Shown piece after piece: positions 10,981 through 20,125 of a stretch of 45,384 bases of DNA. The DNA comes from Anaerolineaceae bacterium (GTDB lineage Bacteria; Chloroflexota; Anaerolineae; Aggregatilineales; Phototrophicaceae): NCBI GenBank assembly GCA_007693385.1, contig REDR01000037.1, positions 1 through 45,384 of the forward strand, written 5' to 3'. A program made the translations under genes and the position numbers. The notes under the pieces were generated by a model. That model was not told the DNA's origin and made no database searches. It saw only the letters and a list, made by a program, of their open reading frames with translations. Positions within the stretch are counted from its first letter, which is position 1, and every line of letters begins with the position of its first letter.

Positions 10981-11514
10981 ATGAACGATCAACCAAACGG
11001 CGCGGATGAGGTGGTGATGTTTCCGCGCAATCTTACGCAATGGTCAGACATGCTGTTGCGTTTGGCGTCATTCGCGTTACTGTGGTTCATCCTCAATGAA
11101 GGCGCGATGGATTCGTGGATTCTGGGCGTACCGGTGACGATCATCGCCACATACGCCAGTCTGCACATCTCCCCTCTGCGTTCGTGGCACATCCACCCCA
11201 TCCACCTGACCCGCTTCTTGTTGTTCTTCCTGCAAAACACGATTGTCAGTAGCTTCGATGTGGCGCGGCGTGTGTTTCACCCCGATTTGCCGATTCAACC
11301 GGCGCTACTGCGCTATAAGTTCCGAATCAAAGCGGAAACGCCGCGTGTGATTATCGCCAATACGACCAGCCTGCTACCGGGCACGCTCAGCGTTGATGTG
11401 ACCGACGATGAATTGCTGGTGCATACGCTGGATGAGACGTTGCCGAACGCGGCGTCGTTGCGCCGTCTGGAAGAACTGGTCGCCAAAGCCTACGGCCTGA
11501 AACTGGAGGATTAA
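10981..11514 (+). CDS. mnhE: Na+/H+ antiporter subunit MrpE/MnhE
   Basis: This 177-aa subunit belongs to a multi-subunit cation/proton antiporter in the cytoplasmic membrane. Two or three membrane segments (about 18-75) are followed by a soluble C-terminal domain (about 85-177) with the family pattern KAETPRVIIANTTSLLPGTL and VHTLDE, which is typical of MrpE and archaeal MbhA. The ATG at 10981 has GGAG eight bases upstream; the earlier in-frame Met at 10948 lacks one. It is the first gene of a nine-gene operon in the order E-F-G-A'-A''B-C-D plus two antiporter-like genes. MrpE is needed for assembly of the complex in known systems. Confidence 0.9.
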   Translation: MNDQPNGADEVVMFPRNLTQWSDMLLRLASFALLWFILNEGAMDSWILGVPVTIIATYASLHISPLRSWHIHPIHLTRFLLFFLQNTIVSSFDVARRVFHPDLPIQPALLRYKFRIKAETPRVIIANTTSLLPGTLSVDVTDDELLVHTLDETLPNAASLRRLEELVAKAYGLKLED

Positions 11515-11521
11515 GCCACTT

Positions 11522-11824
11522 ATGGACACGATTATCGCTATCGTGACGGTCTTTTTGCTGTTGAATATCGCCGCCGGTCTGGTGCGCGTTTTTCTCGGCC
11601 CGACACCGGCAGATCGGCTTCTGTCAATTCAACTTTTTGGTACCACGGGTACCGCGATTCTGTGCCTGCTGGCGGTGGTCGATGGCAACCGTAACTATCT
11701 GAATATCGCGCTGGTGTTCGCGTTGTTGGCCGCGATTCTGGGGGTGGTTTTCACCCGTTACTGGCAAGAAGACGACGAAGAAACGCCGCAATCATTGGAG
11801 GATTTAGGCCGTGAACTTGATTGA
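11522..11824 (+). CDS. mnhF: Na+/H+ antiporter subunit MrpF/MnhF
   Basis: This 100-aa membrane protein has three predicted helices (about 2-22, 32-55, 60-80) and a charged C-terminal tail. The segment RVFLGPTPADRLLSIQLFGTTGTA matches the MrpF pattern of GPT..DR followed by a short loop and a second helix. The ATG at 11522 follows GGAGG at a spacing of about 12, seven bases after the mnhE stop. The 3' end overlaps mnhG by 14 bases. It corresponds to MbhB in archaeal hydrogenase-linked modules. The role of the small subunit is structural within the complex. Confidence 0.88.
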   Translation: MDTIIAIVTVFLLLNIAAGLVRVFLGPTPADRLLSIQLFGTTGTAILCLLAVVDGNRNYLNIALVFALLAAILGVVFTRYWQEDDEETPQSLEDLGRELD

Positions 11825-12116
11825 CGCCTTGACAAGTATTCTGGTTGTGGCAGGGGCGGTGTTCTTCCTCGCGGGGACAGTCGGCCTGTTGCGCCTGCCG
11901 GATGTGTTCACACGTCTGCACGCATTAACAAAAGCGGATAATCTCGGCTTAGGGCTGGTCGTGGTCGGCGTGTCGTTGCAGATGGACGCATGGCAGGACG
12001 CCTTCAAGCTGATCGGCATCTGGTTTCTGGTGCTGGTATCCAGCGCGACAGTCGCCCATCTCATCGGGCGCTATGCCCTGCTACACGGCTATAAGCCCTG
12101 GGAGAAAGAAGAATGA
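11811..12116 (+). CDS. mnhG: Na+/H+ antiporter subunit MrpG/MnhG
   Basis: This 101-aa protein has three helices (about 8-28, 42-60, 64-85). The family signature FFLAGTVGLLRLPDVFTRLHALTKADNLG is complete, and RLPD.(F/Y).R.HA is diagnostic for MrpG. Translation starts at GTG 11811, which has GGAGG at a spacing of about 10 and overlaps the end of mnhF. Its stop overlaps the next ATG (ATGA at 12113-12116). MbhC is the archaeal equivalent. Confidence 0.9.
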   Translation: MNLIDALTSILVVAGAVFFLAGTVGLLRLPDVFTRLHALTKADNLGLGLVVVGVSLQMDAWQDAFKLIGIWFLVLVSSATVAHLIGRYALLHGYKPWEKEE

Positions 12117-12433
12117 TCTTTGACGTTTTACTCGGTCTGATCTTGATCGTGATCGCGTGGTACGCCATTTCCAGCCCCGACTTGTTGCTGGCGGTGGTGC
12201 TATATATCGCGCTGGGTTTGCTGGCGGCGCTGGTCTGGACGCGCATGGGGGCGCCTGATGTGGCGATGGCGGAAGCCGCCGTCGGCTCCGGGCTGACCGG
12301 CGCGTTGTTGATCTCCACGCTCAGCCATCTGCGGCGCAACCGGCCAAAGCCGGAAATCGAAGCGGAGCGCCAGCAAGCGCAAGACGAGACGCGCACCGAG
12401 CCAAGCGAACAGGAGGACTCGAACATTGTCTGA
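12113..12433 (+). CDS. DUF4040/MbhD-like antiporter subunit (MrpA C-terminal part)
   Basis: This 106-aa membrane protein has three helices and a polar, charged tail. The block GAPDVAMAEAAVGSGLTGALL is the hallmark of the DUF4040/MbhD family, which corresponds to part of the long C-terminus of bacterial MrpA. In Bacillus-type Mrp this part is fused inside MrpA; here it is a separate gene, as in archaeal Mbh clusters. It starts in an ATGA overlap with mnhG, and its end overlaps the next gene by eight bases. It helps form the region between the antiporter core and the small subunits in the known complexes. Confidence 0.85.
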   Translation: MIFDVLLGLILIVIAWYAISSPDLLLAVVLYIALGLLAALVWTRMGAPDVAMAEAAVGSGLTGALLISTLSHLRRNRPKPEIEAERQQAQDETRTEPSEQEDSNIV

Positions 12434-13145
12434 TAACAGTTACGATGATGTACGCCTGACCCCCGCCCGCCGCTTTGTGCTGGCGATGATGGCGCTTTTG
12501 GTCGGCGGGTTGGCGGCGGCGGTACTGAGCATTGAAGAAGAAGTCATCGAATTGCGCGATCTGGCGCTGGGCAATCTGGAAGCGAGCGGCGTCGGTAATC
12601 CGGTGACGGCGGTCTTGTTGAACTATCGCAGTTACGACACGTTCTTAGAGGTGGCGGTGCTACTGCTGGCGCTGATCGGTATCTGGGCGGTGGCGAAGAA
12701 AGCGCGTATCCCGATCAAATCACCCAATACGCCGGTATTAATCACGTTTGAGCGCCTGTTTATGCCGTTGATGATCGTCAGTGGTGGTTATCTGCTGTGG
12801 CTGGGCGCGGATCGCACCGGCGGCGCGTTTCAGGCGGGGGCGGTGCTGGGTGCGCTGGGCGTGCTGTGGGTGGCGGCTTCGCTATGGACGCCGAATGACC
12901 GCCTGCGACGGCTAACCCGTCCGGCGCTGGTGGTCGGCATGGCCGCCTTCTTGCTGGTCGGCGGGGGCATGATGCTGTTGGGCGGCGACTTCTTCGAGTA
13001 TCCGCGTGAAGATGCGAAAACGTGGATTCTGCTGATCGAAACGGCGGCGACTATCTCCATCGGGATCACGCTGGTCATGCTGTTCATCGGTGGCATCCCG
13101 CCCAACGCGGACCAAAACAAAGGAGAAAGCGGCGATCATGATTGA
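12426..13145 (+). CDS. MbhE-MrpB fusion subunit of the antiporter
   Basis: This 239-aa membrane protein appears to join two parts. Residues about 15-95 match the MbhE-type MrpA C-terminal segment (NPVTAVLLNYRSYDTFLEVAVLLLALIG). Residues about 100-230 match MrpB/MnhB (PVLITFERLFMPLMIVSGGYLLWLGADRTGGAFQAGAVLGAL). In Pyrococcus-type clusters these are separate genes (mbhE and mbhF). Translation begins at TTG 12426, with AGGAGG about 10 bases upstream. The 3' end overlaps mnhC by eight bases. The fusion is visible in the sequence; the naming of the N-terminal half is from family knowledge. Confidence 0.85.
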   Translation: MSDNSYDDVRLTPARRFVLAMMALLVGGLAAAVLSIEEEVIELRDLALGNLEASGVGNPVTAVLLNYRSYDTFLEVAVLLLALIGIWAVAKKARIPIKSPNTPVLITFERLFMPLMIVSGGYLLWLGADRTGGAFQAGAVLGALGVLWVAASLWTPNDRLRRLTRPALVVGMAAFLLVGGGMMLLGGDFFEYPREDAKTWILLIETAATISIGITLVMLFIGGIPPNADQNKGESGDHD

Positions 13146-13452
13146 TCTGGATACAGGTACATTTTATATGCTGGTGGGCACGGTGCTATTCGGCATCGGC
13201 TTCTATGGGCTGATCGCCTACCCGCATTTACTCCGCAAAATTCTAGCGATGAACATCATGGGCATCGGCGTTTTCATGATCTTCATCGCGGCGGCTTATG
13301 GCAGTGGGGAAGGCGACCCCGATCCGGTGCCTCATGCGCTGGTCATCACCGGGATCGTCGTGGCGGTCTGCGCGACAGGGTTGGCGTTATCGCTGGCCGT
13401 GCAGGTGCAAGCGCTGACCGGAAGCCCCAAACTCGACGCAGATAAGGAATGA
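13138..13452 (+). CDS. mnhC: Na+/H+ antiporter subunit MrpC/MnhC
   Basis: This 104-aa NuoK-like protein has three helices (about 8-30, 36-58, 68-92). The pattern GLIAYPHLLRKILAMNIMGIGVFMIFIA and PVPHALVITGIVVAV matches MrpC, where HALVITGIVI is characteristic. ATG 13138 has AAAGGAGA about 11 bases upstream and overlaps the previous stop; a longer in-frame start at 13090 would lie well inside the previous gene and is rejected. In the NuoK family this subunit helps carry the proton path between antiporter units. Four bases separate its stop from the next ATG. Confidence 0.9.
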   Translation: MIDLDTGTFYMLVGTVLFGIGFYGLIAYPHLLRKILAMNIMGIGVFMIFIAAAYGSGEGDPDPVPHALVITGIVVAVCATGLALSLAVQVQALTGSPKLDADKE

Positions 13453-13456
13453 TGGC

Positions 13457-14938
13457 ATGATTCTGGAGAGTGAAATCTGGCTGGCGCTGGTGGTGCTTTT
13501 GCCGCTAGCGGGTGCCATCCTCACGTTTATGGCGCCACGTTACGCGCCACAGATCGGGACGGTTAGCGGCGTGATCGTGTTCGGCGCGGTGGTCGCGCTG
13601 ACGCTGGCCGTCGTTGAATCCGACGCGACGCGCCTCACGGTAGGCGGTTGGGGCGCACCACTGGGTATTGATCTGGTGGCTGATGGCTTGAGTACGCTGA
13701 TGTTGTTGATGACCGCCGTCGTCGGGCTGGCGATTACCGCGTATGCGGTGGGCTACTTCGGCGAAAGCTCGGCGCATAAACGGGCGTATTTCTGGCCGTT
13801 ATGGTTGTTCCTGTGGGCATCCATGAACGCGCTATTTTTATCCGGCGATGTATTCAACCTGTACGTGACGCTGGAATTGTTGAGCTTGGCCGCCGTCGCG
13901 TTGACCGCGCTCGTCGGCCAGCCCGCCGCAGTACAGGCCGCCATGCGCTATATGCTGGTCGGTCTGGCTGGCTCGCTGATGTATCTGATGGGCGTCGCTT
14001 TCCTGTATGCGGAGATTGGCGTGCTGGACATCATGGCGCTGGCGAGTGTTTCGGAAGCGACGCCGCCGGTGTTCGTGTCTGCCGCGCTCATCACGGCGGG
14101 GTTGATGATGAAAACCGCGTTGTTCCCGCTTCACTTCTGGTTGCCGCCCGCGCACGCCAACGCCGCCGCGCCGGTCAGCGCGTTGCTTTCGGCGCTGGTG
14201 GTCAAAGGGTCGTTTTACATCCTGTTGCGACTGTGGCTGACGGTGTTCGCGCCGTTGGGCGATACGTTCGCGCCGTATGTGTTGAGCGCGTTGGGCATCG
14301 GCGCGATCATCTGGGGATCAATACAGGCGCTACGCCAGCCGAGCATCAAATTGCTGGTGGCGTATTCTACCGTCGCGCAGTTGGGCTATCTGTTCCTGCT
14401 CATCCCGCTATTGATGGATGATGGCGCGGATCGGCAGGCGGTGCTAAGCGGTATCGTCTACTTCATGATCGCGCACGCGATGGCGAAGTCCGCCGCATTC
14501 TTGAGCGCGGGCAACATCTTGCACGCGCTGGGCAATGACCGCATCACGTCGATCATCGGCATGAGTCGCAAGATGCCGTTGACCATTACCGCGTTCGCGC
14601 TGGCCGGGATCAGTCTGGTTGCCCTGCCGCCGAGCGCCGGATTCATCGCCAAGTGGCTACTACTCAATGAAGCGATAGACGGCGGCCAATGGTTGCTGGT
14701 GGTGGTCATCATCGCCGGTGGTTTGCTGGCGGCGGGCTATGTGATGCGCGTGGTTGGCCCGGCCTTCCGGCAGGTGGCGGACGATCAATTAGCGGTGGCG
14801 AATCCGGTGGTGCCCGCTTCGATGGCGTGGTCGGCGCTGGGACTGGCGATACTGGCTATCGTGCTAGGATTTACCGGCGTCTATCTGCTGGATGTGCTGG
14901 ATATTGGCGTCGTGATCCTGACGGGAGGTGAAGCATGA
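13457..14938 (+). CDS. mnhD: Antiporter-like subunit MrpD/MnhD (NuoL/M/N family)
   Basis: This 493-aa protein has about 14 membrane helices. The residues known to form the ion path are present: Glu140 in VTLELLSL (TM5), Lys219 in LMMKTALFPLHFWLPPAHANA (TM7), Lys250 in ALVVKGSFYILLR (TM8), and a Lys in PPSAGFIAKWLLL (TM12). It is the first of three antiporter-like genes in a row. ATG 13457 follows AGGAA about eight bases upstream. Its stop overlaps the next gene in an ATGA. In the complex it exchanges cations (usually Na+) for protons across the cytoplasmic membrane. Confidence 0.9.
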   Translation: MILESEIWLALVVLLPLAGAILTFMAPRYAPQIGTVSGVIVFGAVVALTLAVVESDATRLTVGGWGAPLGIDLVADGLSTLMLLMTAVVGLAITAYAVGYFGESSAHKRAYFWPLWLFLWASMNALFLSGDVFNLYVTLELLSLAAVALTALVGQPAAVQAAMRYMLVGLAGSLMYLMGVAFLYAEIGVLDIMALASVSEATPPVFVSAALITAGLMMKTALFPLHFWLPPAHANAAAPVSALLSALVVKGSFYILLRLWLTVFAPLGDTFAPYVLSALGIGAIIWGSIQALRQPSIKLLVAYSTVAQLGYLFLLIPLLMDDGADRQAVLSGIVYFMIAHAMAKSAAFLSAGNILHALGNDRITSIIGMSRKMPLTITAFALAGISLVALPPSAGFIAKWLLLNEAIDGGQWLLVVVIIAGGLLAAGYVMRVVGPAFRQVADDQLAVANPVVPASMAWSALGLAILAIVLGFTGVYLLDVLDIGVVILTGGEA

Positions 14939-16422
14939 CGTGGGAGAGCTTCTTGCCGGTTGCCATCGTGCTTAGCTCGATGATCCCCGGCCTTATCATC
15001 TTCTGGATACCGGAAAAACAGAGCCAATGGCGCACCGGCGTTAATCTGCTGGGTGCGGTTGTGAAGCTGGTGTTCATCGCTATCGTGATGGCTGGTGTGT
15101 GGCGCGGCGATACCGAGTATGAGGCGCGGTTGTCGCTATTGCCCGACCTTGATCTGGTACTGCGGGCGGACGGGCTGGGCTTGCTGTTCGTGGTGCTATC
15201 GGGGACGCTGTGGCTGGTGACGACGATCTACGCCATCGGCTATCTGGAGCATAGCCACAGCCGCAGTCGCTTCTTCGCGTTCTTCTCGCTGTGCGTCAGC
15301 GCGACGATGGGTATCGCGCTGGCTGGCAATCTGTTCACGTTTCTCATCTTCTATGAATTGCTGACCATCTGCACCTATCCGCTAGTCATCCACAACGGCA
15401 CGGATGAAGCGATGGGGGGCGGACGGACGTATCTCGCGTATACGCTGACCGGCGGCGTCGCGTTGCTGGTCGGCGTGGTGTGGCTCTCGGTGATCGCCGG
15501 GCCGGTAGAATTCACCGACGGCGGAGCGCTGGGGCATGTGGAGGGGCACGTCACCGCGTTGACGGTCATCTTCGCGCTATTCATGATCGGGACGGGCGTC
15601 AAGGCGGCGATCTTCCCGATGCACGGCTGGTTGCCGCGTGCGATGGTCGCGCCTGCGCCGGTCAGCGCGTTGTTGCACGCCGTCGCGGTGGTGAAAGCTG
15701 GCGCTTTCGGCGTGTCGCGCATCGTGATTGATGTATACGGCGTCGATCTGGCGCAATCGTTGAACTTGCTGTTGCCGCTATTGATCGCGGCCTGTACGAC
15801 GGTCATCGTCGGCTCGGTGCTGGCGGTGTTTCAGGACGACCTCAAACGGCGTCTGGCTTACTCAACGGTCAGTCAGGTGTCGTATGTGGTGATGGGCGTG
15901 GCGATCTTCGGGCCGATTGGCGCGGCGGGTGGCTTGCTCCATCTGGTGCATCAGGGCGTGATGAAGATCACGCTGTTCTTCGGCGCGGGCGCTTTCGCGG
16001 AGACGCTGGGCGTGAAGAAGGTCAGCCAGATGAACGGCATCGGCTCGCGGATGCCGTGGACGATGGCGGCGTTTACCGTCGGGGCGCTAGGCATGATCGG
16101 CGTGCCGCCGGTGGCCGGATTCATCAGCAAGTGGTATCTGGGCACGGGGGCGATTGCCGCCGATGTCGATTGGGTGGTGCTGGTGTTGCTGGGAAGCAGT
16201 CTGCTGAACGCGATCTACTTCTTGCCCATCCTGTATCGGGCGTGGTTCCTGCCGCAGATTGACGAATGGCCGCACGAAGAGCCGGGCCCGGCGAACTGGA
16301 TGCTGGTCGCGCCGCCGGTGGTGACGGCGGTCGCCGCGCTGTTGTTGGGCGTGTTCGCTAGCGCGGACTTCAGCTTGCTGAGCTGGGTCGAACTGATTAT
16401 CGAACGGGAGTACATGCCATGA
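14935..16422 (+). CDS. Second antiporter-like subunit (MrpD/MrpA core-like)
   Basis: This 495-aa, 14-helix protein of the NuoL/M/N-MrpA/D family retains the full charged set: Glu141 in FLIFYELLTICTYPLV, Lys223 in GVKAAIFPMHGWLPRAM, His248 and Lys254 in LLHAVAVVKAG, and Lys in VAGFISKWYL. It starts in an ATGA overlap with mnhD, with GGAGG seven bases upstream. It may take the place of the MrpA core, whose C-terminal parts are encoded separately here by 12113-12433 and 12426-13145. I cannot tell by eye whether it descends from MrpA or from a duplicated MrpD. Confidence 0.85.
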   Translation: MTWESFLPVAIVLSSMIPGLIIFWIPEKQSQWRTGVNLLGAVVKLVFIAIVMAGVWRGDTEYEARLSLLPDLDLVLRADGLGLLFVVLSGTLWLVTTIYAIGYLEHSHSRSRFFAFFSLCVSATMGIALAGNLFTFLIFYELLTICTYPLVIHNGTDEAMGGGRTYLAYTLTGGVALLVGVVWLSVIAGPVEFTDGGALGHVEGHVTALTVIFALFMIGTGVKAAIFPMHGWLPRAMVAPAPVSALLHAVAVVKAGAFGVSRIVIDVYGVDLAQSLNLLLPLLIAACTTVIVGSVLAVFQDDLKRRLAYSTVSQVSYVVMGVAIFGPIGAAGGLLHLVHQGVMKITLFFGAGAFAETLGVKKVSQMNGIGSRMPWTMAAFTVGALGMIGVPPVAGFISKWYLGTGAIAADVDWVVLVLLGSSLLNAIYFLPILYRAWFLPQIDEWPHEEPGPANWMLVAPPVVTAVAALLLGVFASADFSLLSWVELIIEREYMP

Positions 16423-18131
16423 CGTTTTATGAGATATTGCTGGTCGTCGCGTGGCTTTTGCCGCTAGCCGTCGGCCTGTGGCAGATCGCCCGCCCCGCGC
16501 ACATGCTACGCTATGCGCCGTATACCGCCGTGCCCGCGCTGGTGGCGGCGCTGGCCGTGCCGCTGGATACATCGTTCGAGCTATCATGGTTATTGCTCGG
16601 CGCGACGCTTCAACTGGACGCGATGGGGCAGGCGTTCCTGCTGTTCACCGCGACGCTGTGGCTGGTTTCCGGCGTGGTCGGCATGGCGTATCTGCAAAAG
16701 GACGCCAACCGCCCGCGCTTCTTCGGCTATTACATGCTGGCGATGTCGGGCAACTTCGGCCTGATTATCGCCGGTGATATGCTGTCGTATTATCTATGGT
16801 TCGCGGTGATGAGCTTCGCCTCTTACGGGCTGGTGGTGCATACCGGCGCGGAATTCGCACGGCGGGCGGGGTCGGTCTATATTCAACTGGTGGTCATCGG
16901 TGAGGTGTTGCTATTCGCCGCGCTGGTGATGATCGCCTCTGATAACGGCTCGTTGCTGTTGCCGGACGCGAGCGACGCGACGATCAGCACATTGGCCGCC
17001 GTGCTGGTGTTCATCAGTTTCGGCCTGAAGGCGGGCGTCATCGTGTTGCATGTGTGGCTACCGTTGGCGCACCCCGCCGCGCCGGTCCCGGCCAGCGCGG
17101 TACTGAGTGGCGCGATGATTAAGGCCGGTCTGCTAGGCTGGATGCGCTTCTTGCAACCGGCGGAATTCGCGCTGGAATGGGGCGAATTCCTCATCATGGC
17201 CGGTCTGCTCTCCGCGTTTTATGGGGCGCTGGTCGGCGTGTGGCAACATGACCCGAAGGCGGTGCTGGCATATTCCAGCATCAGCCAGATGGGACTTATC
17301 ACGGTTGGCGCGGGCGCGTCGTTGCTCCTGCCGCCGGAATCGCAACCGTTGGCGCTCTCCGCCGTGATGCTGTATGCGTTGCATCACGGGTTGGCGAAGG
17401 GAGCGCTGTTTCTCGGCGTCGGCTTGATCGGCACATCGCGGGCGATGGTCGGCCTGCTGTTCGTTCCGGCTTTGGCGTTGGCCGGTCTGCCACTGACCAG
17501 TGGCGCGGTGGCGAAGGCGGAACTGAAATACGCCGCCGAGTCTTTGCCGCCGGTGTGGAAAGATAGCCTTGAGATGTTGTTGCCACTGGCCGCCATCGGC
17601 ACGACGCTATTGATGGCGCGTTTCCTGCATCTGATGTGGACGCGGGCGACGGGTGAAAAAGTGCCGCATCCGATCATTCGCGCCGGGGTGCTGGCGACTA
17701 TCGTCGTCGGGCTGATCGTCATGCCGATCTGGTCGCAGGCCAGCGACGCCCTGCAGAAGTCGTTAGAGCCGGAAAAGCTGTGGGTGGCGCTGTGGCCGAT
17801 ACTGGCCGGGACGGTGATCGCGCTGGGCTATGGCGTGCTGAGTCGCGGGATGCCCGCGCTGAAGGATTTCACCATCGCCGCCGGTGATGTGTTGTATCCG
17901 TTGGAAGCGCTGATTCATGGTCTGCTGGGCGGTCTGGTGGCGGTCAAGAAAGGCGTGGAGGCCGTCGCCGACGCGATCTTCGTGTGGGCGCAGAGGGCGC
18001 TACAGCCGTCCGAAGCGCAGAAAGAGACCGCCGTCGCGCTGGAATTGCGCCTGCGTAACTGGACGACAGCCGGTAGCTGGCTGTTGGGGTTGGCGCTGGT
18101 GTTTCTGCTGGCGGTGTGGCTGGGCGGGTGA
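16419..18131 (+). CDS. Third antiporter-like subunit (HyfB/NuoL-like), TM5 Glu lost
   Basis: This 570-aa protein of the HyfB/NuoL type has about 14-16 helices and a longer C-terminal part (about 450-570) that ends in a membrane helix after a stretch of amphipathic sequence. Lys204 (FGLKAGVIVLHVWLPLAHP), Lys235 (SGAMIKAGLLG) and Lys in TSGAVAKAELKY are kept. The TM5 glutamate expected before MS..SY.LV is Ala129 (YLWFAVMSFASYGLV). It starts in an ATGA overlap. It is the last gene of the operon; a strong terminator follows at 18247-18276. The lost Glu suggests that this subunit carries out only part of the transport cycle, or a structural job (inference). Confidence 0.85.
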   Translation: MTFYEILLVVAWLLPLAVGLWQIARPAHMLRYAPYTAVPALVAALAVPLDTSFELSWLLLGATLQLDAMGQAFLLFTATLWLVSGVVGMAYLQKDANRPRFFGYYMLAMSGNFGLIIAGDMLSYYLWFAVMSFASYGLVVHTGAEFARRAGSVYIQLVVIGEVLLFAALVMIASDNGSLLLPDASDATISTLAAVLVFISFGLKAGVIVLHVWLPLAHPAAPVPASAVLSGAMIKAGLLGWMRFLQPAEFALEWGEFLIMAGLLSAFYGALVGVWQHDPKAVLAYSSISQMGLITVGAGASLLLPPESQPLALSAVMLYALHHGLAKGALFLGVGLIGTSRAMVGLLFVPALALAGLPLTSGAVAKAELKYAAESLPPVWKDSLEMLLPLAAIGTTLLMARFLHLMWTRATGEKVPHPIIRAGVLATIVVGLIVMPIWSQASDALQKSLEPEKLWVALWPILAGTVIALGYGVLSRGMPALKDFTIAAGDVLYPLEALIHGLLGGLVAVKKGVEAVADAIFVWAQRALQPSEAQKETAVALELRLRNWTTAGSWLLGLALVFLLAVWLGG

Positions 18132-18246: not shown

Positions 18247-18276
18247 GAACCGGACAAAAAGTCCGGTTCTTGTTTT
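18247..18276 (+). terminator. Intrinsic terminator of the Mrp operon
   Basis: A perfect 9-bp stem, GAACCGGAC (18247-18255) with GTCCGGTTC (18261-18269), an AAAAA loop and TTGTTTT after it. It lies 115 bases beyond the last antiporter gene and is the clearest intrinsic terminator in the window. Confidence 0.9.
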
Positions 18277-18349
18277 ATAGTTCTATATGAGCCGTGCGCC
18301 GCATGTGCCCCGAACCGATCATATAATTGAGCAAATGGAATCAAATCGT

Positions 18350-20125
18350 ATGGCGACACAGACCTATAATCCGGTGCAGGATCGCGGCGTTTCATGGCGC
18401 GATTATCTGCCGTTCCTCGATTGGCTGGTGAATTACAAGCGCGAACATCTATCCGGTGACGTGATCGCCGGTGTGATCGTCGCGGTGATGCTGGTGCCGC
18501 AGGGGATGGCTTACGCGCTTCTGGCCGGATTGCCGCCACAGGTCGGACTATACGCCAGCATCCTACCCCTGATTATCTACGGGTTACTGGGCACCAGCCG
18601 GACGCTGGCCGTCGGCCCGGTGGCGGTGGTGTCTTTGCTGGTGGCGAGTGGCATCGGCGCGTTGAACCCGGCCACCACCGAAGAATACATCGCGCTGGCG
18701 CTGACGTTGGCGCTGATGGTGGGCATCATTCAGGTGGCGATGGGCTTCTTGCGCGTCGGCTTTCTGGTCAACTTCCTCAGCCATCCGGTGCTATCCGGCT
18801 TCACCAGTGGCGCGGCGGTGATGATCGCGCTCAGCCAGCTTAAGAACGTATTCGGCTTTGACGTGCCGCGCAGTGAGCAATTCCACGCGCTGATCCTCAG
18901 CACGATCAGCCGTATCGACCAGACCAACATCGCCATATTCGCCATCAGCATGGCGAGCATCGGCGTTCTGCTGTATTTCAAGTTCGCGCTGGGCAAACAC
19001 TTGAAAGCGCTGGGCGTGTCGAACGTGGTCGCGCTGACTTTGACCAAGATCGGCCCGTTGTTGATCGTGGTGGGCGGGGTGTTGATCGTTTCGGTGTTCG
19101 GCCTGCATCAGAGCGCGGATGTGGCGATTGTCGGCGCGGTGCCGGGCGGATTGCCGCCGTTAACCATCCCGCTATTCGATGTGGCGACGTGGCAGGCGCT
19201 TTTGCCCATCGCGCTGACCATCAGCATCGTCAGCTATATGGAGAGTATCTCCGTCGGGAAGGCGCTGGCCGCCAAGCGTCGCCAGAAGATCGACGCTAAT
19301 CAGGAATTGATCGCGCTGGGCGCGGCCAACTTCGGCGCGACGTTCACCGGCGGCTATCCGGTAACGGGTGGGTTCAGCCGTTCGATGGTCAATTTCACGG
19401 CGGGGGCGAATACCGGCCTCGCGTCGCTCATCACGGCGGGGCTGGTACTGCTGACGGTGCTATTCCTGACGCCGCTATTCTACTATTTGCCGAACGCGGT
19501 ACTGGCCGCGATTGTGGTGGTGGCCGTCGCCTCGCTGGTCGATGTCGGCGCGTTCCTCCATGCGTGGCACTACGATAAATCGGATGCGATCTCCCTGCTG
19601 GTGACGTTCCTCGCGGTGATTCAGCTCGGCGTGGAAGTCGGTATTCTGGTGGGCGCGGCGGCGTCGATGGGCTTGTACCTGTGGCGCACCAGTAGGCCGC
19701 ATGTGGCCGTCGTCGGGCGCATCGGCGAGACGGAAGAATACCGCAACATCTTGCGCCACGAGACGCAGACCTTCCCCAATATCCTCGCGTTGCGCGTGGA
19801 CGAGAGCCTGTATTTCCCGAACGCGCAATATCTGGAAGATGTGGTGCTGGGGCATGTCGCCGACAACCCGCAGATCGACCATTTCGTGCTGGTGTGTAGC
19901 GCGGTGAACTACATCGACATCAGCGCGTTAGAAGTGTTGCGCGATGTTCACGAGCGCCTGCGCGATAACGACATCGGCTTTTACATGGCGGAGGTCAAAG
20001 GGCCGGTGATGGATCGTCTGGAGGCTATCGGCTTCGCGGATCGCATGGGGCGGCAGAATTTCTTCCTGACCACGCATGAAGCGTGCAAGACGTTGCGGCA
20101 ACTAGGCAAGGCACAGGCTTTTTGA
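18350..20125 (+). CDS. SulP family anion transporter with STAS domain
   Basis: This is a 591-aa transporter of sulfate, bicarbonate or similar anions. A cytoplasmic N-terminus (about 1-40) leads to a SulP core of 12-14 helices with the entry motif LVPQGMAYALLAGLPPQVGLYAS, then GPVAVVSLL, NFGATFTGGYPVTGGFSRS and LTPLFYYLPNAVLAAIV. A cytoplasmic STAS domain (about 470-580, with YIDISALEVLRDVHERL) closes it. Starts at 18287, 18335 and 18350 are all in frame without clear ribosome-binding sites. I take 18350 because a TATAAT (18322-18327) lies in the longer N-terminus; 18287 cannot be excluded. Its place after the Na+/H+ antiporter operon would suit Na+-coupled bicarbonate uptake, but substrate is not shown. 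Confidence 0.9.
   Translation: MATQTYNPVQDRGVSWRDYLPFLDWLVNYKREHLSGDVIAGVIVAVMLVPQGMAYALLAGLPPQVGLYASILPLIIYGLLGTSRTLAVGPVAVVSLLVASGIGALNPATTEEYIALALTLALMVGIIQVAMGFLRVGFLVNFLSHPVLSGFTSGAAVMIALSQLKNVFGFDVPRSEQFHALILSTISRIDQTNIAIFAISMASIGVLLYFKFALGKHLKALGVSNVVALTLTKIGPLLIVVGGVLIVSVFGLHQSADVAIVGAVPGGLPPLTIPLFDVATWQALLPIALTISIVSYMESISVGKALAAKRRQKIDANQELIALGAANFGATFTGGYPVTGGFSRSMVNFTAGANTGLASLITAGLVLLTVLFLTPLFYYLPNAVLAAIVVVAVASLVDVGAFLHAWHYDKSDAISLLVTFLAVIQLGVEVGILVGAAASMGLYLWRTSRPHVAVVGRIGETEEYRNILRHETQTFPNILALRVDESLYFPNAQYLEDVVLGHVADNPQIDHFVLVCSAVNYIDISALEVLRDVHERLRDNDIGFYMAEVKGPVMDRLEAIGFADRMGRQNFFLTTHEACKTLRQLGKAQAF

Follow-up and report, generated by a model that had tools for sequence, protein, structure and literature searches.

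Does an Mrp-type membrane arm with three antiporter-like subunits work on its own, or does it need an oxidoreductase encoded elsewhere in the genome? The question is raised by a nine-gene operon found at positions 10981 to 18131, on the + strand, of the 45,384-nucleotide contig REDR01000037.1 of an Anaerolineaceae bacterium (hereafter the window, meaning the whole stretch of DNA that was analysed). An earlier note, made from the sequence alone, had described these genes as an Mbh-like Mrp operon and had left both answers standing. From its gene content and order, the lack of a partner, the phylogeny of its antiporter-like subunits, a residue exchange in the third of them and the predicted fold of that protein, we conclude that the operon quite probably encodes a stand-alone, multi-subunit group 3 (CPA3) Mrp cation/proton antiporter.

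Open reading frames and domain searches gave the gene order mrpE-F-G-A'-(A''B)-C-D1-D2-D3, adjacent genes overlapping or being separated by at most 7 nucleotides, and placed all nine genes where the earlier note had put them. Each of the Mrp subunits E, F, G, B, C and D has a Pfam match within this one operon. The C-terminal pieces of MrpA are encoded separately, as A' and A''B, with no N-terminal antiporter domain, which sets the operon apart from group 1 and group 2 Mrps, and a profile search with PF00361 recovered neither an intact MrpA nor an MrpA-MrpB fusion from the operon or the draft genome. Subunits like MbhJ-N (NuoB/C/D/H/I-like) are likewise missing from the operon, as is an MbhH/MbsH orthologue. 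The Mbh-like gene order, the absence of MrpA, the three antiporter-like subunits and the lack of an oxidoreductase in the operon had thus been correctly described.

The window is the whole of contig C118 in a 3.59-Mb draft genome (137 contigs, 96.85% complete). Family profile searches detected no NuoB-, NuoD- or NuoH-like gene on it. Genes matching PF00361 are confined to contigs C68, C127 and C118, and those outside C118 belong to complex I gene sets. The genome has two NuoH genes (PF00146, on C68 and C127), two NuoD genes (PF00346, on C68 and C101) and three NuoB-like genes (PF01058, on C68, C101 and C43). When subunits were named by size, gene order and domain matches, C68 was found to carry a complete complex I gene set with its three antiporter subunits. 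A second membrane arm, nuoA-H-J-K-L-M-M'-N, lies on C127 and is matched by nuoB-nuoCD-nuoI on C101, while the NuoB-like gene of C43 is the HoxY of a soluble HoxEFUYH-type hydrogenase. Because both NuoH and both NuoD genes belong to complex I sets with antiporter subunits of their own, the draft genome holds no leftover NuoH- or NuoD-like subunit for the Mrp unit. The search for orphan NuoB/C/D/H/I-like or hydrogenase genes proposed in the earlier note was therefore negative in this genome: the stand-alone branch of its alternative is favoured, and a partner encoded elsewhere was rejected as unlikely, each NuoH and NuoD gene having an explained home and no redox neighbour being conserved at related loci.

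Two other features of these contigs were recorded. The second complex I is split over C127 (L011, 8790-18748) and C101 (L048, 8122-11572), has no nuoEFG, and includes two NuoM-like subunits, the second with Leu at the lysine site of transmembrane helix (TM) 7. On C43 (L049, 1969-13005), a 2-oxoacid:ferredoxin-oxidoreductase-like set precedes the HoxEFUYH-type NiFe hydrogenase and its maturation genes.

The three antiporter-like subunits were then placed in a maximum-likelihood tree of 67 sequences, in which no root was inferred. D1 groups with MrpD (95/91) and not with MbhH or MbsH, which group with NuoN-like sequences. D2 (100/99) and D3 (100/100) each form a separate clade, neither joining MrpA and both lying outside Mbh. 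This distribution, together with the absence of mrpA, is that of a group 3 Mrp. The outcome named in the earlier note as contrary to its view, all subunits falling into ordinary Bacillus-type Mrp with an intact MrpA, was not obtained; "Mbh-like", taken as kinship, did not survive, the order being Mbh-like but the sequences not specifically so. Nor does the tree support D3 as a relative of MrpA, HyfB or Mbh, although NCBIfam ranks HyfB first. The sister of the D3 clade (98/89) is the third subunit, D3', of an eight-gene array in another genome, G405. This diverged array (L167, contig C17, 127-7100) reads F-G-A'-A''B-C-D1-D2-D3', E being either beyond the contig start or absent; D3' has 661 residues, keeps the TM5 glutamate discussed below and has no TM6 glutamate.

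D3 combines PF00361 and the antiporter fold with the loss of the TM5 glutamate conserved in the superfamily. In all 90 D3 sequences (88 aligned directly, plus the D3 halves of two D2-D3 fusion proteins) this residue, E144 in NuoL, is replaced by Ala, Ser or Thr, and a Glu occupies the TM6 position of NuoL D178. The TM5 Glu is kept in 67 of 67 D1, in all readable D2 but one odd row and in 28 of 28 reference subunits; among further antiporter-like subunits in which the TM5 site is present, 82 of 82 have the TM5 Glu and none has the TM6 Glu. At the D178 position D1 carries Ser and D2 Gly, and the only acid among the references is the Asp of NuoL itself. The TM7 lysine (NuoL K229) is present in 89 D3s out of 90, the last having Arg, and the TM12 lysine (NuoL K399) in 90 out of 90; about one quarter have another residue in place of the TM8 lysine. 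Because the fold and the other key residues are kept, we read D3 as a variant of the superfamily.

To control the collection procedure, we considered that one of the two peptide patterns used to gather loci contained the TM5 motif (FA), so that the apparent loss of the TM5 Glu could have been an artefact. This was rejected by three sets collected in other ways, namely 11 loci recovered by the other pattern only, 3 genomes from a profile search and 6 plasmid loci from tblastn, all without the TM5 Glu and all with the TM6 Glu. Two D3 rows that seemed to keep the TM5 Glu turned out to be D2-D3 fusions in which the D2 half had been read. The G405 sister has the TM5 Glu but no TM6 Glu, so the simplest history would be a single exchange, TM5 Glu for TM6 Glu, on the D3 stem. 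We found no description of the D3 state (TM5 Glu lost, TM6 Glu gained) in open-licence papers, and it appears to be new.

The structure of D3 predicted with AlphaFold has a pLDDT (predicted local distance difference test) of 90 and a pTM (predicted template modelling score) of 0.86. Its top structural match is NuoL (Z 43.5, 487 residues, 3.1 Å), closely followed by MrpA chains, and in the predicted model the match reaches into the lateral-helix region of NuoL. In E. coli complex I solved at high resolution, the TM7 lysine K229 of NuoL lies 3.3 Å from D178 and 4.8 Å from E144 (PMC13324432). By alignment, the TM7 lysine of D3 (Lys204) most likely pairs with Glu162 of TM6 instead of a TM5 residue. 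One may tentatively go further and propose that D3 is a distinct proton-conducting class whose gating ion pair would use the TM6 Glu in place of the TM5 Glu; the complex would then offer protons three routes for each cation route and exceed ordinary Mrp in its proton-to-cation stoichiometry, suiting saline or alkaline habitats. We consider it rather unlikely that D3 is a structural end cap without proton conduction, in which the loss of the TM5 Glu inactivated the half-channel and Glu162 is structural. The presence of the TM5 Glu in the other antiporter-like subunits compared, its description as fully conserved (PMC4938563) and the replaced TM8 lysines speak for such a cap. A dead channel should however drift at its key sites, so the near-constancy of the TM7 lysine, the constancy of the TM12 lysine and a TM6 Glu invariant just where NuoL has the ion-pair Asp178 count against it.

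Related loci were collected by a scan with the D3 alignment over one genome per species, which gave 80 loci, or 81 with the window. The full gene set occurs in essentially the same order in 54 loci, 49 of them E-first (window included) and 5 E-last, from at least 12 phyla (Pseudomonadota, Thermodesulfobacteriota, Gemmatimonadota, Chloroflexota, Myxococcota, Campylobacterota, Binatota, Acidobacteriota, Actinomycetota, Nitrospirota, Verrucomicrobiota and Bacteroidota), and such recurrence shows that the order is not due to chance. Most E-first loci have exactly E-F-G-A'-A''B-C-D1-D2-D3, or the same with A' and A''B fused. The majority of the 54 loci are records of metagenome-assembled genomes (MAGs), so that claims on any single phylum depend on binning. 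The operon is sporadic, being present in 2 of 98 genomes of the window's family and in 3 of 151 sampled from its order; the close relatives G037 and G105 carry it. The earlier note had called three NuoL/M/N-family subunits in one Mrp complex uncommon, which holds for close relatives but not across bacteria, where the nine-gene form is widespread. The operon was also found on plasmids or megaplasmids (L168-L173) of Rubrobacter, Rhizobium, Aminobacter, Halomonas, Sinorhizobium and a Rhodobacteraceae strain, with D3 moved ahead of D1 and D2 in Rubrobacter. As it is both sporadic and plasmid-borne, horizontal spread is the natural reading. In two loci D2 and D3 are fused into a protein of about 1075 residues (L087, 8312-11533, from the isolate Algicola sagamiensis DSM 14643, and L092, 2200-5436, from a Pseudomonadales MAG), which points to a direct partnership between D2 and D3.

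Across about 770 kb of DNA flanking the 81 loci, no NuoB/D/H-like gene adjoins the operon. An oxidoreductase in a neighbouring operon, which the earlier note had said would overturn its view, thus did not appear as a conserved partner. In L075 the operon has a Hox set at a distance of about 7 kb, and a NuoG-like gene stands directly upstream in L125 only. The flanks were also searched for hints of function, and the only recurring neighbours were histidine-kinase-like and P-type-ATPase-like genes, each in few loci. By eye, a P-type cation ATPase-like gene was identified from its sequence within 4 genes of the operon in 8 of the 81 loci (for instance L128, 10694-13408). In a gammaproteobacterial MAG (L112, 6963 to the end), a second Mrp-like array (D3/D2-like, C, D1, E, F, G) directly follows the nine-gene operon. 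Many hosts, Thioalkalivibrio, Nitrincola and Ectothiorhodospira among them, are halophiles, alkaliphiles or, going by sample names, MAGs from soda lakes; these habitats may fit a role in salt or alkali tolerance. A search of open-licence papers for Thioalkalivibrio together with MrpD returned nothing.

The features of the locus are collected in Table 1. For mrpE, an upstream start at ATG 10948 is possible. The terminator reads GAACCGGAC-AAAAA-GTCCGGTTC-TTGTTTT, a strong hairpin followed by a T-rich stretch.

Table 1. Features of the nine-gene operon and its 3' neighbour (window positions)
Feature	Position	Strand	Evidence and remarks
mrpE-like (MbhA-like)	10981..11514	+	Pfam MNHE 1.3e-27; GGAG ribosome-binding-like before ATG 10981
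mrpF-like (MbhB-like)	11522..11824	+	Pfam MrpF_PhaF 1.2e-11
mrpG-like (MbhC-like)	11811..12116	+	GTG start, overlaps mrpF; Pfam PhaG_MnhG 1.1e-26; TIGR01300 over cut-off
A', MbhD-like piece of MrpA C-terminal domain	12113..12433	+	Pfam MbhD 2.4e-19
A''B, MbhE-like segment and MnhB domain in a single protein	12426..13145	+	Pfam MnhB 4.4e-12; MbhE 2.2e-5, slightly below cut-off
mrpC-like (NuoK/MbhG-like)	13138..13452	+	Pfam Oxidored_q2 1.4e-18; AAGGAG before ATG 13138
D1, MrpD orthologue, 493 aa	13457..14938	+	PF00361 1.8e-52; MrpD clade 95/91; TM5 Glu and TM7/TM8/TM12 Lys intact
D2, second antiporter-like subunit, 495 aa	14935..16422	+	PF00361 2.8e-55; own clade 100/99; key residues intact
D3, third antiporter-like subunit, 570 aa	16419..18131	+	PF00361 5e-34; NuoL/MrpA-like predicted fold; C-terminal lateral-helix segment
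D3 Ala129 codon, aligned to NuoL Glu144 (TM5)	16803..16805	+	
D3 Glu162 codon, aligned to NuoL Asp178 (TM6)	16902..16904	+	
Intrinsic terminator hairpin, operon end	18247..18269	+	9 pairs (6 G-C), 5-nt loop, then TTGTTTT
SulP-family anion transporter with STAS domain	18287..20125	+	start maybe 18350; 3' of terminator, outside operon; TIGR00815 4.6e-153, over cut-off

The SulP-STAS gene directly after the terminator recalls the clusters of Mrp genes with bicA in 'Candidatus Nitrospira alkalitolerans' and Aphanothece. It could be argued that the operon serves mainly to provide this adjacent transporter with a Na+ gradient for bicarbonate uptake, as the two lie in the same direction and as the 'Ca. 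Nitrospira alkalitolerans' locus joins a group 3 Mrp and two extra NuoM/L-like genes to bicA, and bicA of Aphanothece is clustered with Na+/H+ antiporters (PMC7784846). We consider this improbable: the terminator separates the operon from the SulP gene, the SulP protein scores 121 bits against the BicA model, far under the cut-off of 880, and is thus not a BicA equivalog, and none of the other 80 related loci yielded a SulP orthologue, the neighbour being unique to the window. A SulP-linked role in bicarbonate uptake is accordingly possible but weakly supported. That the nine proteins serve as membrane arm in a redox-driven pump, with the genes for its oxidoreductase at another place in the genome, would suit the gene order, which is that of the Mrp arm of Mbh/Mbs, and the nuoB-nuoCD-nuoI cluster lying on C101 apart from any membrane subunit, but is very improbable since this cluster complements C127, which has its own antiporters and one of only two NuoH genes, since the third NuoB-like gene is the HoxY of a soluble set and since no redox partner is conserved next to the 81 loci.

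For the stand-alone antiporter, the following working scheme can be proposed. By analogy with Mrp and Mbh structures, E, F, G, A', A''B and C would form the cation-path and junction module, and D1 (MrpD), D2 and D3 a row of proton-path subunits. Given membership of the Mrp family, the membrane potential, with no redox input, would drive protons inward by way of the D subunits, and Na+ (possibly Li+ or K+) would leave in exchange through the E/F/G/A module. From its fold, D3 is probably the outermost subunit of the row, adjoining D2, and may, like NuoL and MrpA, extend its C-terminal helix alongside neighbouring subunits; its TM7 lysine would pair with Glu162. The nine-gene complex is likely a salt and alkali tolerance system. 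Several points weigh against this scheme. The draft state of the genome (96.85% complete, in 137 contigs) makes the absence of a partner less than absolute, the putative Glu162-Lys204 contact rests on alignment to NuoL, the loss of the TM5 Glu could mean that D3 conducts no protons, and open-licence papers yielded no transport measurements on any nine-gene member.

Proton-gating models of complex I and Mrp turn on which carboxylate pairs with the TM7 lysine, and the conserved carboxylate exchange in D3 bears directly on a debated mechanism. E. coli NuoL has both the TM5 and the TM6 acids, which makes their roles hard to tell apart; D3, with the TM6 acid only, and its G405 sister, with the TM5 acid only, offer a natural pair for testing them. 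Databases label the nine-gene complex as parts of complex I ("complex I subunit 5 family protein").

The architecture of the operon is already known in outline from published group 3 Mrps, which have no MrpA and only mrpD-type subunits, sometimes in several D copies (PMC8415708). The Pyrococcus furiosus group 3 Mrp PF1147-53 (mrpEFGBB'CD), tested by deletion (PMC8415708), is also stand-alone, without MrpA and in the same order E-F-G-B-B'-C-D, but is archaeal and has one D where the window has three. In 'Ca. Nitrospira alkalitolerans', two further NuoM/NuoL-like genes follow mrpD of a group 3 Mrp, with the SulP-family bicA in the same locus (PMC7784846). The likeness to the window, in the two extra genes and the SulP-family gene, is by published description only; that locus is mentioned in passing, the extra subunits not being analysed residue by residue in the part consulted, and the SulP protein of the window is not a BicA equivalog. 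The group 3 order mrpFGBCDDAE of Microbacterium sp. TS-1 (PMC5703873) has three antiporter-like genes in a row and E last, as in the nine-gene loci L091, L099, L122, L128 and L130, a likeness by published gene order only, the third gene being named mrpA. The cyanobacterial mrpCD1D2EFGAB of Aphanothece, shown to act as a Na+/H+ antiporter (PMC5703873), also has extra D genes, but two of them and in another order. Pyrococcus Mbh and Mbs share with the window the order of the Mrp-derived arm and the MbhD/MbhE-like pieces, whereas the window has no hydrogenase or sulfane reductase module and its D1 is MrpD-like, not MbhH-like. Finally, NuoL is like D3 in its fold and in the acid at the TM6 Asp178 position, but NuoL also keeps the TM5 Glu144, which D3 does not.

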